From: Deltaproteobacteria bacterium | GTDB lineage: Bacteria > Desulfobacterota > G020345765 | Direction: 5' to 3' | Assembly (NCBI GenBank): GCA_020345765.1 | Contig: CP070770.1 | Location: 2,802,551 to 2,837,365 of the forward strand | DNA length: 34,815 nt | Shown here: positions 6,668 through 29,148 of the stretch, in pieces | Layout: the number at the start of each line of letters is the position of its first letter | Numbering within the stretch: position 1 is the first letter of the stretch | Program-made: the position numbers and the translations under genes | Notes under the pieces: generated by a model | The model's database searches: none | The model's input: only the letters and a program-made list of their open reading frames with translations | Told to the model about the DNA's origin: nothing

Positions 6668-6683
6668 ACCAAATACCGTGCCA
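6668..6683 (-). promoter_or_regulatory. Sigma54 (RpoN) -24/-12 promoter, copy A
   Basis: On the - strand the sequence is TGGCACGGTATTTGGT. It matches the sigma54 consensus TGGCACG-N4-TTGC at every defined base except the -12 C, which is G. The predicted start of transcription is near 6657, giving a 66-base leader ahead of the acidic secreted protein gene (ATG at 6591). The same element recurs at 23324-23339 with conserved flanks. Confidence 0.7.
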
Positions 6684-22682: not shown

Positions 22683-22892
22683 TTACTTTTTTGCGGATTT
22701 CTTCGCCCTCGGCTTCTTTGGCTTAGGCACCGAACTACCTGCTCTTTTCTTTTTGGCTATCTCACTCTTTATTTCCTTCTCCGCCTTAAGCCAGTCCTCG
22801 AGTTGATAGCCGTGCTCTCCGCCGCGTGCGAGGAACAGGTGATACGCACGCTCGGCAATACGTTTCTTGACCTCTTCATTGTATCCGGACAT
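22683..22892 (-). CDS. DUF2934 family small protein with basic tail
   Basis: A 69-residue protein with the DUF2934 pattern RIAERAYHLFLARGGEHGYQLEDWLKAEKEI (residues ~11-41), followed by a Lys/Ala/Pro-rich basic tail (KPKKPRAKKSAKK) that suggests contact with nucleic acid or another acidic partner. The function of the family is unknown. A strong Shine-Dalgarno (aaagggggg) precedes the ATG. Upstream lies the terminator of the OB-fold gene at 22962-22988, and no separate promoter is obvious, so it may depend on read-through. It ends before a strong terminator. A second DUF2934 gene lies at 26636-26836. Confidence 0.8.
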   Translation of the reverse strand: MSGYNEEVKKRIAERAYHLFLARGGEHGYQLEDWLKAEKEIKSEIAKKKRAGSSVPKPKKPRAKKSAKK

Positions 22893-23323: not shown

Positions 23324-23339
23324 ACCAAATACCATGCCA
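23324..23339 (-). promoter_or_regulatory. Sigma54 (RpoN) -24/-12 promoter, copy B
   Basis: The - strand reads TGGCATGGTATTTGGT, matching TGGCAY-N5-TTGC except for G in place of the -12 C, as in copy A. Transcription should start near 23313, giving a leader of about 61 bases before the OB-fold gene (ATG at 23252). Confidence 0.68.
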
Positions 23340-23391: not shown

Positions 23392-23608
23392 TCGGAAATA
23401 ATAGTTCCGATTGTGGAGAGACTATATGAATATAATGTTCCGATAATTATTCCAGCATTATCGCAAGACTCTAATAGCTTTATTTAATAAAAGCCGTAAA
23501 TTATTGATTAATATAAATTTATATTTAAATCAGGGCATTTAATTGAGGCTGGCGATTGAAATCGGAACAATTGGTGCTGAAAATCAATCTGAGAATCTAT
23601 GGTTCCTA
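23392..23608. promoter_or_regulatory. Array of TCGGAA half-sites (putative enhancer), copy B
   Basis: Half-sites occur at 23392-23397 and 23405-23410 (inverted, seven-base spacer), 23438-23443 and 23562-23567. A degenerate fifth (TTCCTA) is at 23603-23608, inside the 3' end of the sigma54 activator gene. Compared with copy A, gaps from promoter to pair (52), pair to third site (27) and fourth to fifth (35) are identical, and third to fourth differs by one base. The rest of 23253-23583 has no gene. Confidence 0.6.
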
Positions 23609-25035
23609 TTTTTTACGGAGTTATTTTTTGCCGACTTAAAGTCTTCCTTGCGGATCTCGTATTTTTTTAAGAGCTTGTGCAGCTGGCGGGTACTGATACC
23701 GGCAGTAGCGGCCGTTAAGTTGATCCTTCCCTTGTGGGCATTCAGCTGCTCCCTCAGGTATTGCCTTTCTACACTCTCAATAGCCTCTTCCCTGACCTCA
23801 GCCAGTGTGCGCGATGTATCTACCCTGATCTGGGCGCCTCCAATTTCGCCCCCGAAAAGCTCGGCCGGGAAGCTCTCTGTTGTAAGGATATTCGACTGCT
23901 CGATTATGTAGGCCCGCTCGAGGATATTTTCCAGTTCGCGTATGTTTCCGGGCCATTGGTAGCGGCGGAAACCGGCCATAACCGCCGGATGCAATGTATG
24001 GATGTTTTTAAAATAGTATCTGTTCAACTCCTCAAGAAAACCCTGGACCAGGAATGGTATATCTTCCAGGCGTTCCCGCAGGGGGGGGATCGCAACGGGA
24101 AACACATTAAGCCGGTAGTAAAGGTCCTTCCGGAAGTTGCCGGACTCGACTAACCCCTCGATATCCTCGTTCGAAGCTGCGACTACCCGAACATCGGCCT
24201 TAATCTCCGTCTCCCCGCCTACCCGGCTGAAGGTTTTCTCCTGGAGTACCTGTAAGAGTTTAATCTGCACGGATTGGGTTATCGAGCTGATCTCGTCGAG
24301 GAAGATCGTGCCTCCCTGGGCGATCTCGAACCTGCCGAGTTTCCTCCTTACCGCCCCGGTGAACGCCCCCTTCTCGTGACCGAAGAACTCGCTCTCGATC
24401 AGTGTATCCGGGATCGCCCCGCAATGCACGCTGATGAACTGGTTATCGCAACGGTTGCTGTGCAAATGTATGAGTTTCGCCAATTCGCCCTTGCCGGTTC
24501 CGGTCTCCCCGGTAAGGAGGACTGTCGTCTTGGTGGGCGCTACCGACTTTACCTTGTCGAACACCTTCTTCATCGCCGGGTTGAGGGTATAAATTACCCG
24601 CTGTGATTCATCCTTCCAGAATTTGTCCCGCAGGTATTCCAGCTCCGACTGTGTCCGCAGGGATTCGTAGCCGGCCTCGGTCACCAGAGCCACCTCGGTC
24701 GGGTTTATCGGGTAGGTAAGGTAATCGTTCACCCCGGCCTTAACCGCCATTACCGCCCTGCGAATGTCCTCCGGCGATGACAGCAAAACGATCTGGCAGG
24801 TAGGGAAAGCGTTCCAGAAGGGCTTTAAAACCTCGTCAAAGTCAATCCGGTGCGTCTGCTCGGGCAATCCCAGAAAAGAGATATCAATGAAGAGAAACTC
24901 GTAGTGCCTCTCAATAAACTTCGCCAAACAGCTCTCCCGGTCCCGGGCGGTTTCAACCACATGATCGGCGTCGAAACAATCCCGGATAGTGGAGGTGGCC
25001 GCATCGTCCTCAGTGGCTATGAGGATATACTTCAT
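23584..25035 (-). CDS. Sigma54-dependent response regulator, NtrC family, with an atypical receiver
   Basis: A 483-residue bacterial enhancer-binding protein. The receiver domain (about 1-125) has the acidic patch at residues 9-11 and Asp51, but the conserved Lys is Tyr108 (DYLTYP where DYLTKP is usual). The AAA+ domain has Walker A GETGTGKG near residue 176, the sigma54-contact loop GAFTGA near 223 and Walker B GGTIFLDEIS near 242. A Fis-type HTH lies near 440-467 (INLTAATAGISTRQLHKLLKKYEI). It remodels sigma54-RNA polymerase at -24/-12 promoters. It starts 10 bases after the NifU-like gene. Its 3' end runs into the copy B half-site array, making the OB-fold gene promoter an obvious target. 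No kinase gene is adjacent. Confidence 0.92.
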   Translation of the reverse strand: MKYILIATEDDAATSTIRDCFDADHVVETARDRESCLAKFIERHYEFLFIDISFLGLPEQTHRIDFDEVLKPFWNAFPTCQIVLLSSPEDIRRAVMAVKAGVNDYLTYPINPTEVALVTEAGYESLRTQSELEYLRDKFWKDESQRVIYTLNPAMKKVFDKVKSVAPTKTTVLLTGETGTGKGELAKLIHLHSNRCDNQFISVHCGAIPDTLIESEFFGHEKGAFTGAVRRKLGRFEIAQGGTIFLDEISSITQSVQIKLLQVLQEKTFSRVGGETEIKADVRVVAASNEDIEGLVESGNFRKDLYYRLNVFPVAIPPLRERLEDIPFLVQGFLEELNRYYFKNIHTLHPAVMAGFRRYQWPGNIRELENILERAYIIEQSNILTTESFPAELFGGEIGGAQIRVDTSRTLAEVREEAIESVERQYLREQLNAHKGRINLTAATAGISTRQLHKLLKKYEIRKEDFKSAKNNSVKNRNHRFSD

Positions 25036-26635: not shown

Positions 26636-26836
26636 TCAATTATTCGACATTATAATCTTTTCTGCCTCGAACCAATCTCCCCAATCATTACCGTGAGCAC
26701 TGTCTCTTCTCTTGTAGAGTTCATAAGCTACCTTCTGGATTTCTTCGTGGTTATCTCCCGGGTTTAACGGGTTCTTCGCTACATTCTTTGAAGATCTCTT
26801 TGACGGATTTTCCTTCCTGATTACTCTTCTGGTCAT
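26636..26836 (-). CDS. DUF2934 family small protein (second copy)
   Basis: A 66-residue protein. A basic N-terminal half (MTRRVIRKENPSKRSSKN) precedes the DUF2934 pattern EEIQKVAYELYKRRDSAHGNDWGDWFEAEKIIM (about residues 31-63). The basic extension is N-terminal here, while in the copy at 22683-22892 it is C-terminal. Function unknown. The Shine-Dalgarno is strong (aaaggaggtgat). A sigma54-type promoter lies about 160 bases upstream (26998-27012). No terminator is obvious downstream, where it converges on the TRAP binding protein gene. Confidence 0.8.
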   Translation of the reverse strand: MTRRVIRKENPSKRSSKNVAKNPLNPGDNHEEIQKVAYELYKRRDSAHGNDWGDWFEAEKIIMSNN

Positions 26837-26997
26837 CTCTTATATCACCTCCTTTTCAATACTCAAATCGCCCACTCCTTAAATCTCATACTTAGGTGCG
26901 GTAGATACATAATAATTAATCCTTCAGAGTTTCTTAGAATTACATATCTAAATAATTTAAAGTAAAAAACGGGTGGCTTAGTTTAACTCGTTTATTG

Positions 26998-27012
26998 GCA
27001 AATACTATGCCA
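26998..27012 (-). promoter_or_regulatory. Sigma54 (RpoN) -24/-12 promoter, third site
   Basis: The - strand reads TGGCATAGTATTTGC, a full match to TGGCAY-N5-TTGC, preceded by T as in the extended consensus. It shares GTATTTG with copies A and B but has none of their flanking blocks. Predicted start near 26986, giving a 150-base leader to the DUF2934 gene. Confidence 0.6.
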
Positions 27013-27246
27013 AATCTATCTAAATCCTGAGAGCATTTATAAATAATTGAAAATAAAGACACTAAAAATAAAACAACTATACATATATCAACTTAGGTAA
27101 AGTCTAATTTAGAAGCTTAAATGAGACAGGATAAGATACTTATGGCTCATTTGAGCTGTGGCTCTGGGTAAGCGTTGCAGTCGCTATAATCAACAGTATC
27201 TTCGCTCTCTTATGATTATTATGGATTAGCTCCCATAAAATATAGT

Positions 27247-27270
27247 GTTTCACTTAACCTTAAATGAAAC
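27247..27270. promoter_or_regulatory. 24-base dyad, possible operator or enhancer
   Basis: GTTTCACTTAA (27247-27257) and TTAAATGAAAC (27260-27270) form an inverted repeat with two central bases and one mismatch. A related single copy, TTAAATGAGAC, lies at 27117-27127. It sits about 260 bases upstream of the predicted sigma54 start for the DUF2934 gene and about 160 bases upstream of the + strand gene at 27427; either could be its target. Confidence 0.4.
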
Positions 27271-27426
27271 ATCATGTTACACTTAGACAAAAGCTATGAC
27301 CATAAGGGAGGAATTATATATTTTAATCATATTACTTCTGTGATATATTTTAGATATCTATTTCGATAAACACAAAGATATCCGAAGCCAAATTAATCTT
27401 TTCCCCTTATATCCACCGGAAAGGCA

Positions 27427-29148
27427 TTGAATCAAATGGAAACAAATAGAAAATCCCGGACAGGTTCTCTCCTTGCATTTACCGTAATCATGGCCGCTCT
27501 AGTATGGGCCGATGGACTCACCATTACCCAATGTCTCGGTGCCCAGAGCCTGTTCTCCCGGGTGCGGGAGTGCCTACGCAATCGCATCGAGTCATCCGGG
27601 TTCCCGGCAAAGATAATTATCGGGGAATAAACGGTTTATACCTTGATGACACTGCCGCGTTTTTATGAGCAGCGGGGCTACCAACCCGCCTGGATCGACG
27701 ATTCCGGGCTTAAACCGCAAGTGGAAGGTCTGGTTAGGATGCTGCGCGCGGCCGCCCAGGAAGGACTGAATCCACTCGATTATCACCTGACCGAGATCGA
27801 GGCCAAGCGGGAGGCAATACGCGCCGACCGGAGAAGGGTTAATCCGGATCGACTGACCGAACTCGACCTGCTCCTCACCGACGCCTATCTGCTCTATGGT
27901 TATCACTTACTGGCGGGGAAAGTCAACCCGGAGACGATCGATCCGGAATGGTTTATCGCCCGCCGGAAAGCGGATCTTGTCACGATCCTCCAGAATGCGC
28001 TCGATTCCAACCAGGTGGAGGCTTCTTTGCGGAGCCTGCTTCCTTCCCATTCCGGCTATTATGCGCTTCGCGGGGCACTGGCCGCTCACCGTGCCATTGC
28101 CGCCCAGGGCGGCTGGGCTGCCGTCCCCGATGGCCCCGGACTTCGAAAGGGCGACCGGGACCCGCGGGTTGAGTCCTTAAGGGTCCGTTTGACTGCTGCG
28201 GGTGATTTAGAGACTAAAGAAGTGTTCGACAAGGAATTATTTGACGAAGACCTGGATCGGGCACTGCAGAAATTCCAGGGGCGCCACGGGCTAAATTCCA
28301 GTGGGGGGCTCAATGCGAATACACTGACGGCGCTCAATCTCCCTGCAGAAGTTCGTGTGAGGCAGATCATGGTAAATATGGAACGCTGTCGCTGGCTACC
28401 GCAGGATCTTGGGGAGCAATATATTATGGTGAATATCGCCAATTTTGAACTTGATGTCGTTGAGGCCGACCGGGTAGTAATGACCATGAGGGTGGTGGTC
28501 GATAGGCCCTACCGCCGTACCCCGGTTTTCAGCGACATGATAACCTATCTGGTATTCTGCCCCTACTGGCATGTACCAAAGGGGATCGCCGCTGCGGATA
28601 TCTTGCCCCAACTGCGCCGGGATATTGGCTATCTCACCCAGAATAACATCAAGGTCTTCCCGGAATGGGGCCCGGAATCCAAAGAGATCGACCCGACCGG
28701 AGTCGACTGGTTCCGGGTCAACTCCGGTAATCTCAATTACCGCTTCCGTCAGGAACCGGGCCCGTCGAACGCCCTAGGTCGCATTAAGTTCATGTTCCCC
28801 AACAAGTTCAATGTTTATCTGCACGATACCCCGTCGCGGGAATTGTTCGCCGTTTCTGAGCGCACCTTTAGTTCCGGGTGCATCCGCATAGAACGGCCGC
28901 TGGATCTGGCCGAGTATCTCCTCCGGGACGAGCCCGGCTGGAAGCGGGAAAAGATAATTGCCGTTATCGAAAAAAATGTTGAGCAAACTAAGAGATTGCC
29001 CCGGCCGGTTACGATCCACCTGCTTTATTTGACGGCCTGGGCGGAGAATGACGGCAGAGTGCAATTCCGTAATGACATTTATCTGCGCGACGAGCCCGTG
29101 TATCAGGCACTTACCGAAAGACCCGTGAGCATTGATGGAAGGGAATAG
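27427..29148 (+). pseudogene. YcbB-type L,D-transpeptidase, interrupted by an in-frame TAA
   Basis: Two pieces in one frame, 27427-27630 and 27643-29148, together make a protein of the normal YcbB layout. The first piece is a signal-anchor (LLAFTVIMAALVW) plus the start of the mature protein. Continuing after the stop come LPRFYEQRGYQPAWIDDSGL, GLNPLDYHLTEIEA, a peptidoglycan-binding segment (DPRVESLRVRLTAAG ... FQGRHGLNSSGGLNANTL) and the YkuD catalytic domain with VYLHDTPSRELF and SSGCIRIERPLDLAEYLL (Cys near residue 412 of the second piece). The TAA at 27628-27630 cuts off the signal peptide, so the long piece, if made from the ATG at 27643, would stay in the cytoplasm. Intact enzymes form 3-3 cross-links in peptidoglycan. 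Confidence 0.75.

Follow-up and report, generated by a model that had tools for sequence, protein, structure and literature searches.

At sigma54-dependent promoters, dimers of an activator protein oligomerize at an upstream enhancer, IHF loops the intervening DNA, and ATP hydrolysis opens the promoter. At nifH, glnH, and pspA, the IHF site lies between the enhancer and the promoter. For the Desulfovibrionales, Kazakov et al. used the colocalization of activators and sites to assign activators, and the main text of that study describes regulons that mostly comprise 1 to 4 operons, with 12 in the largest (PMC4641369). Here we describe a sigma54 promoter in a 34,815-nucleotide stretch of DNA (C1:2802551-2837365), which we call the window, from the 3,416,895-base (3.42-Mb), one-contig genome of a deltaproteobacterium (G000). 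The best overall explanation of our results, with a probability of roughly 0.75, is that this promoter, located upstream of a DUF2934 gene, belongs to a ten-member sigma54 regulon controlled by an unlinked activator with a MEDS sensory domain. The features of the locus are as follows.

26636..26836, - strand: DUF2934 gene, 66 aa, first gene downstream (PF11154, E 1.1e-9; 38.2 bits versus a gathering threshold of 22)
26837..26986, - strand: predicted untranslated leader of the DUF2934 transcript, ~150 nt, from the distance between the -12 element and the ATG
26998..27012, - strand: sigma54 -24/-12 promoter TGGCATAGTATTTGC, exact consensus, member of the R1 family described below (E 8.9e-25)
27037..27058, - strand: IHF-like element CTTTATTTTCAATTATTTATAA, with TTTTCA 41 bp upstream of TGGCA
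27101..27128, no strand assigned: proximal dyad AGTCTAATTTAG-N4-TTAAATGAGACA, probable activator site, kept in 14 of 14 promoters
27143..27154, no strand assigned: extra near-site TGGCTCATTTGA, in this copy only (score 10 of 12, position not conserved)
27246..27271, no strand assigned: distal dyad TGTTTCACTTAA-CC-TTAAATGAAACA, probable activator site, kept in 14 of 14 promoters
27275..27286, no strand assigned: half-site TGTTACACTTAG past the distal dyad, inverted in the window and rcc1 copies

The pattern TGGCAYRNNNNTTGC has a single match at zero mismatches within the window, which is TGGCATAGTATTTGC; an earlier note on this DNA had described a full sigma54 consensus on the - strand here, and the match at 26998-27012 is indeed exact. 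The upstream sites proposed in that note also lie where it had placed them (TTAAATGAGAC at 27117-27127, TCAAATGAGCC at 27144-27154 on the - strand, TTAAGTGAAAC at 27247-27257 on the - strand, and TTAAATGAAAC at 27260-27270), and it had overlooked two elements, the IHF-like one at 27037-27058 and, at 27101-27112, the second arm of the proximal dyad. The distal dyad scores 23 of 24, whereas 1,600 first-order Markov shuffles average 16.2 and reach at most 20. When two mismatches are allowed, the site motif occurs 27 times in the window against 25 expected, which is chance level. The DUF2934 gene has a strong Shine-Dalgarno sequence (AAGGAGGTGAT), and no Rfam RNA family matched in the window. Judged from its sequence, the segment from 26998 to 27286 appears to control the DUF2934 gene and to be one of ten promoters in a single chromosomal sigma54 regulon.

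We assessed sigma54 promoters across the genome using the consensus TGGCAY-R-N4-TTGC. Genome-wide, TGGCAYRNNNNTTGC gave 28 matches versus 3 for the reversed pattern, which indicates that the exact matches are mostly real; two of them (L007 and L024) look coding. The pattern TGGCAYRNNNTTGC, one base shorter, returned only noise and was dropped. The genome carries rpoN (PF04552, E 4e-60; C1:2021142-2021618) and 20 genes with a strong sigma54-activator domain. Six of these 20 (L029, L030, L031, L038, L041, and L042) are followed by a sigma54 promoter on the same strand, 194 to 296 bp past the stop codon. This arrangement amounts to a genome-wide rule of layout by which activators can be matched to targets, and applying it (target promoter 200 to 300 bp after the activator gene) would pair the lineage's other enhancer-binding proteins with their sites. 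Several other sigma54 promoters pair up by shared upstream sites (L022/L023, with TTTGCACA-type dyads; L008/L015, with TAAATCAGACACTTAATGTCTAATTAATTT; L001/L002; and L006/L011) and probably represent further small regulons.

When the 320 bp preceding each of the 28 consensus matches were compared for a common layout, 8 of the 28 (L009, L017, L018, L020, L021, L025 [the window promoter], L026, and L028) were found to share one. It consists of a distal dyad TGTYTCATTTAA-N-TTAAATGARACA ~253 bp upstream, a proximal dyad, an IHF-like element CTTTATTTTCAANTANTTAGA, and then the -24/-12 promoter. A sequence-only model (R1), trained on these 8 promoters and extending from about -150 to the promoter, had exactly ten strong matches in the genome (E of 3e-17 or better), with the next at E 0.0066. 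The two matches outside the training set (C1:3055322-3055473, E 1.1e-18, and C1:218570-218716, E 2.7e-17) both have a -24/-12 promoter (TGGCACTTGATTTGC and TGGCATACTCTTTGA), both dyads, and the IHF-like element. Among 58 relatives, the promoter family was found only in G001 (JAUWWP01, Deltaproteobacteria bacterium isolate CSMAG_2661), the sole same-genus genome and here the sister species. Its five matches precede a TolC/CusC orthologue, two tandem XRE-type genes that are orthologues of the L091 case, a histidine kinase, and, just after a MEDS activator gene, a gene for a small protein; four are complete promoters, and the fifth (XRE-type) runs off the contig end.

The geometry of these 14 promoters (ten from this genome and four from the sister species), counted from the T of TGGCA, is nearly constant. 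The forward arm of the proximal dyad lies at -114 to -119 and the TTTTCA of CTTTATTTTCAANTANTTAGA at -41 or -42 in all 14. The distal dyad lies at -251 to -255 in 10 of the 14, at -259/-260 in the window and RCC1 copies, and at -242 and -264 in one copy each, the last two being one helical turn off in either direction. Arms are spaced, start to start, by 13 bp in most distal dyads and mostly by 16 to 18 bp in proximal ones, and most copies have an additional half-site 15 to 18 bp past the distal dyad. Member dyads score 19 to 24 of 24 (mean of 16.2 and maximum of 20 for Markov shuffles of the same sequences), while nonmember sigma54 sites score 13 to 20, the 20 belonging to L019, where the dyad is directly beside its promoter.

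Such likeness might arise from recent duplication, as of a dispersed repeat, without any shared regulation, and the spacers of the window and RCC1-gene promoters are 64% identical (mean, 53%). We consider this very unlikely: pairwise identity among the promoters averages 80% in the elements versus 53% in the spacers, the elements are kept before orthologous genes in the sister species, and the distal spacer varies in length mostly by full turns of the helix. Conservation also extends to the short stretch separating the IHF-like element from -24, overall identity in the spacers exceeds that after shuffling, and part of the promoter similarity may reflect common descent of the promoters. The dyads also lie between the DUF2934 gene and a divergent + strand gene for an L,D-transpeptidase (YkuD; 27643-29148), which they could control instead. 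We give this reading almost no credence, as the other nine sites have different neighbors but always a sigma54 promoter at a fixed distance; the earlier note had reserved the case of a dyad conserved only with the + strand gene, and the upstream gene proved to vary. Since the architecture is fixed across the regulon and kept before sister-species orthologues, the dyads belong to the sigma54 promoters and not to the + strand gene. These data support well, at the level of sequence, a regulon that is very probably real, and the ten scattered promoters are probably all switched on by one distant sensor protein.

Outside this genus, the dyads disappear. The pattern TYTCATTT-N3-12-AAATGARA has 8 matches in this genome (control, 1), 6 in G001 (control, 0), and 0 to 3 in each of 295 other genomes of the phylum. 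A weak model match in G004 (E 2.6e-4) comprises an IHF-like site and a promoter, with no dyads. The IHF-like element behaves differently. Within the genome, TTTATTTTCARNTANTT occurs 9 times, always in regulon promoters, and 0 times in the control; the element differs from WATCARNNNNTTR by one mismatch, at the second position, and the genome encodes an IHF/HU-family protein (PF00216; L150:9990-10289). The putative assignment to IHF draws on that one-mismatch match, the position of the element, and the IHF/HU-family gene. Across 84,980 species, the combination of TTATTTTCANNTANTT with a sigma54 consensus after it is found again in Desulfobacterota, Aminicenantes, Bradyrhizobium, and others, and the dyads are absent from all 26 IHF-plus-promoter matches in other genera. 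The dyads are therefore genus specific, while the IHF-like/promoter module is widespread: TTATTTTCANNTANTT is seen 26 to 30 bp upstream of a sigma54 consensus in many phyla (L107-L136), as a phase-locked module without dyads. With the same genus left out and three homologous Firmicutes matches counted once, the spacing between TTATTTTCANNTANTT and the promoter is nonuniform, 21 of 24 matches falling in five of the eleven allowed lengths (binomial P of ~2e-5, with the lengths picked post hoc). This speaks more for a general DNA-bending site than for a factor peculiar to the regulon, although the exact form is still regulon specific within the genome.

We next consider which protein might act at the dyads. 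The candidate activator, the activator gene within the window, and two promoters of the TCGGAA type are as follows.

~C1:2220980-2223400 (L094:6382-8805), - strand: MEDS activator L031, 807 aa, ~600 kb from the window promoter
23584-25035, - strand: window activator gene, response-regulator type, with no G001 orthologue (best match, 38%)
23325-23339, - strand: TCGGAA-type promoter TGGCATGGTATTTGG, 244 bp past the stop codon of the window activator
6669-6683, - strand: second TCGGAA-type promoter, with TCGGAA sites and a full IHF consensus upstream

The window activator, 2 kb away, downstream, and on the same strand, could control the DUF2934 promoter. We rejected this candidate as highly improbable: its best G001 match is only 38% although G001 has the dyad regulon, its own TCGGAA-type promoter adjoins it, and TCGGAA is absent from the promoter at 26998-27012, as the earlier note had observed. 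From sequence and position, the window activator is instead the obvious candidate for both TCGGAA promoters. Upstream of these two TGGCAYGGTATTTGG promoters (23325-23339 and 6669-6683), the sequences can be aligned and contain TTGTTCCGATTT, two copies of ATCGGAAC, TTCCGA, and, adjoining the promoter, a perfect IHF consensus (TATCAATATGTTA or AATCAATATGTTA). The regulon dyads are not found there (dyad scores of 16 and 17 of 24). The earlier suggestion of a second, unlinked sigma54 activator gains support from dyads that occur at ten dispersed promoters and in the sister species and are absent from the TCGGAA promoters, and from a window activator that has no G001 orthologue and a TCGGAA-type promoter of its own. 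Its remark that three short genes with such promoters in 21 kb are notable does not hold up, as they resolve into two separate regulons and are unremarkable in themselves. GTATTTG, which it had noted in all three window promoters, is present in each but is no mark of kinship, since the identical TGGCATAGTATTTGC also occurs, without dyads, at the unrelated L006 and L011. One of these stands before a prepilin-like gene and follows a PilR-like activator (L030); the other stands before a GspE-N-like gene.

L031 has the domain order MEDS, PAS, Sigma54_activat with GAFTGA, AAA lid, and HTH_8 (PF00158, E 7e-72; PF02954, E 5.5e-9; GAFTGA present). The MEDS domain matches (PF14417) score 158.0 (L031) and 167.7 bits against a gathering threshold of 29.8, with E values of 2e-46 and 2e-49. 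No receiver domain was found in the MEDS activator, and control is therefore probably exerted by a small molecule via MEDS/PAS rather than by phosphorylation. None of the NCBIfam subgroups compared (NifA, NtrC, PrdR, and others) reached its curated cutoff, the best score being 373.9 versus 528.85 for NifA. The reciprocal best match of L031 in G001 is a MEDS activator of 1,055 aa, and in both genomes only this activator adjoins a regulon promoter, immediately upstream of it, with the gene ending ~310 bp before the end of the promoter. In G001 (L105), the gene is flanked by an SDR gene and by the promoter of a small protein-SPOR-like-macro-domain operon; in G000, that operon (L087) is without the activator, which is found at L094 next to another promoter-STAS-small-protein cassette. 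The cassette was thus either duplicated or relocated.

At E<1e-30, the HTH of the MEDS activator is found only in G000 and G001 among 297 genomes; the next best relative in other families of the phylum has an E of 2e-17, and most of these relatives have a different recognition helix, GVGRATLYRFL. Their genomes have no dyads beyond background, and the MEDS signature was not seen in the 13 relatives examined, several of which are incomplete sequences. For these three reasons, the HTH relatives could not extend the correlation between motif and activator; dyads and activator HTH are confined to one genus, and their co-occurrence rests on two genomes, a distribution that other activators common to both species would fit as well. 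The assignment of the regulon to L031, the MEDS-PAS-AAA-HTH_8 protein, is moderately supported by these linkages, and we think it probable. An almost identical HTH is present in a paralog at C1:1489592, which is 82% identical to the G001 MEDS activator over AAA and HTH, and the activator is most likely either L031 or both proteins together.

It is possible, if doubtful, that the regulon is real but answers to another of the ~20 enhancer-binding proteins, such as the paralog alone or a shared two-component response regulator. The paralog's identity to the G001 protein and its near-same HTH fit this reading, as do several further activators with G001 orthologues; however, only the MEDS activator adjoins a regulon promoter, in both species, and several of the others are each linked to a sigma54 promoter of their own, whose upstream sites differ. 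Another reading is that the dyads are bound by some other DNA-binding protein (a repressor or coregulator) and that the sigma54 activator binds elsewhere. For enhancer sites, they are long and close to perfect, and many copies have five half-sites per promoter. We nevertheless find this unlikely, because two dyads 90 to 260 bp upstream combined with an IHF-like site occupy the textbook enhancer position, and no further shared element is left to act as the enhancer.

The sequences show the promoter family, its geometry, its conservation in a second species, rpoN, and the conserved linkage of the MEDS activator to one member; binding, IHF action, ligand, and role are inferred. If the MEDS activator is the regulator, the promoter would work as follows. 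Sigma54 RNA polymerase would wait at -24/-12 while dimers of the enhancer-binding protein bind the two TGTYTCATTTAA dyads ~115 and ~253 bp upstream and oligomerize. The DNA would bend at the IHF-like element, 41 bp upstream, and so loop the activator onto the holoenzyme, and ATP hydrolysis by the GAFTGA-bearing AAA+ domain would open the promoter. The activator itself may respond to a small molecule through MEDS/PAS.

In addition to the DUF2934 gene, the regulon promoters precede genes for the following products.

L087, L093, and L094: three STAS proteins, one of them by ORF similarity
L088: receiver-only protein, below the curated cutoff
L089: TolC/CusB/CusA-like heavy-metal efflux
L090: RCC1-repeat lipoprotein, then a cytochrome-like protein
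L086: paralog of the cytochrome-like protein
L091: XRE regulator
L092: DnaJ-TPR protein, then a DnaK-like protein (from ORF reading)
L094, downstream part of the operon: HD, ferredoxin, flavin reductase-rubredoxin, and PAS proteins

This mix of targets hints weakly at a role that is perhaps a stress or redox program with signaling outputs. The genome has just two DUF2934 genes, and both lie in the window (22683-22892 and 26636-26836, both on the - strand), 4 kb apart, and each is downstream of a sigma54-like promoter, of different types. DUF2934 is lineage specific and absent from G001, so this target is not conserved; the regulon nonetheless gives the gene a regulatory context. Quite tentatively, the one-component MEDS-PAS activator could be a global switch of the lineage that feeds a small-molecule signal via sigma54 into STAS partner switching. 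In such a sigma54-to-STAS cascade, the putative members fed would be three STAS anti-sigma-antagonists, the receiver, the XRE regulator, and the histidine kinase, and the module of two dyads plus IHF would have been copied to new genes, including the lineage-specific DUF2934. The ten promoters, the strong motif, and the prime activator candidate together make a complete and testable regulon, derived from sequence alone, in an uncultured deltaproteobacterial lineage.

The regulon is newly recognized; its kind is ordinary and known. As at nifH, glnH, and pspA, an IHF-like site, here with one mismatch to WATCARNNNNTTR, lies between enhancer and promoter, but this element is much more conserved than IHF requires, and its exact form is restricted to the regulon within the genome. 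The sigma54 regulons described for Desulfovibrio vulgaris in the main text of PMC4641369 likewise have palindromic upstream sites, an activator beside one target promoter, and dispersed operons. A text search of that main text did not find the TGTYTCATTTAA dyad motif, and the present regulon differs from those described there in having at least 10 promoters, in all of which two dyads and an IHF-like site occupy fixed positions. Our search of the open-access literature revealed no published MEDS-sigma54 activator, and the L031 architecture suggests a MEDS sensory domain that works through sigma54. The activator shares this domain (PF14417) with DcmR and EtnR2 (PMC8784404); unlike in the regulators of that review, MEDS is here fused to PAS, a sigma54 AAA+ domain, and HTH_8.
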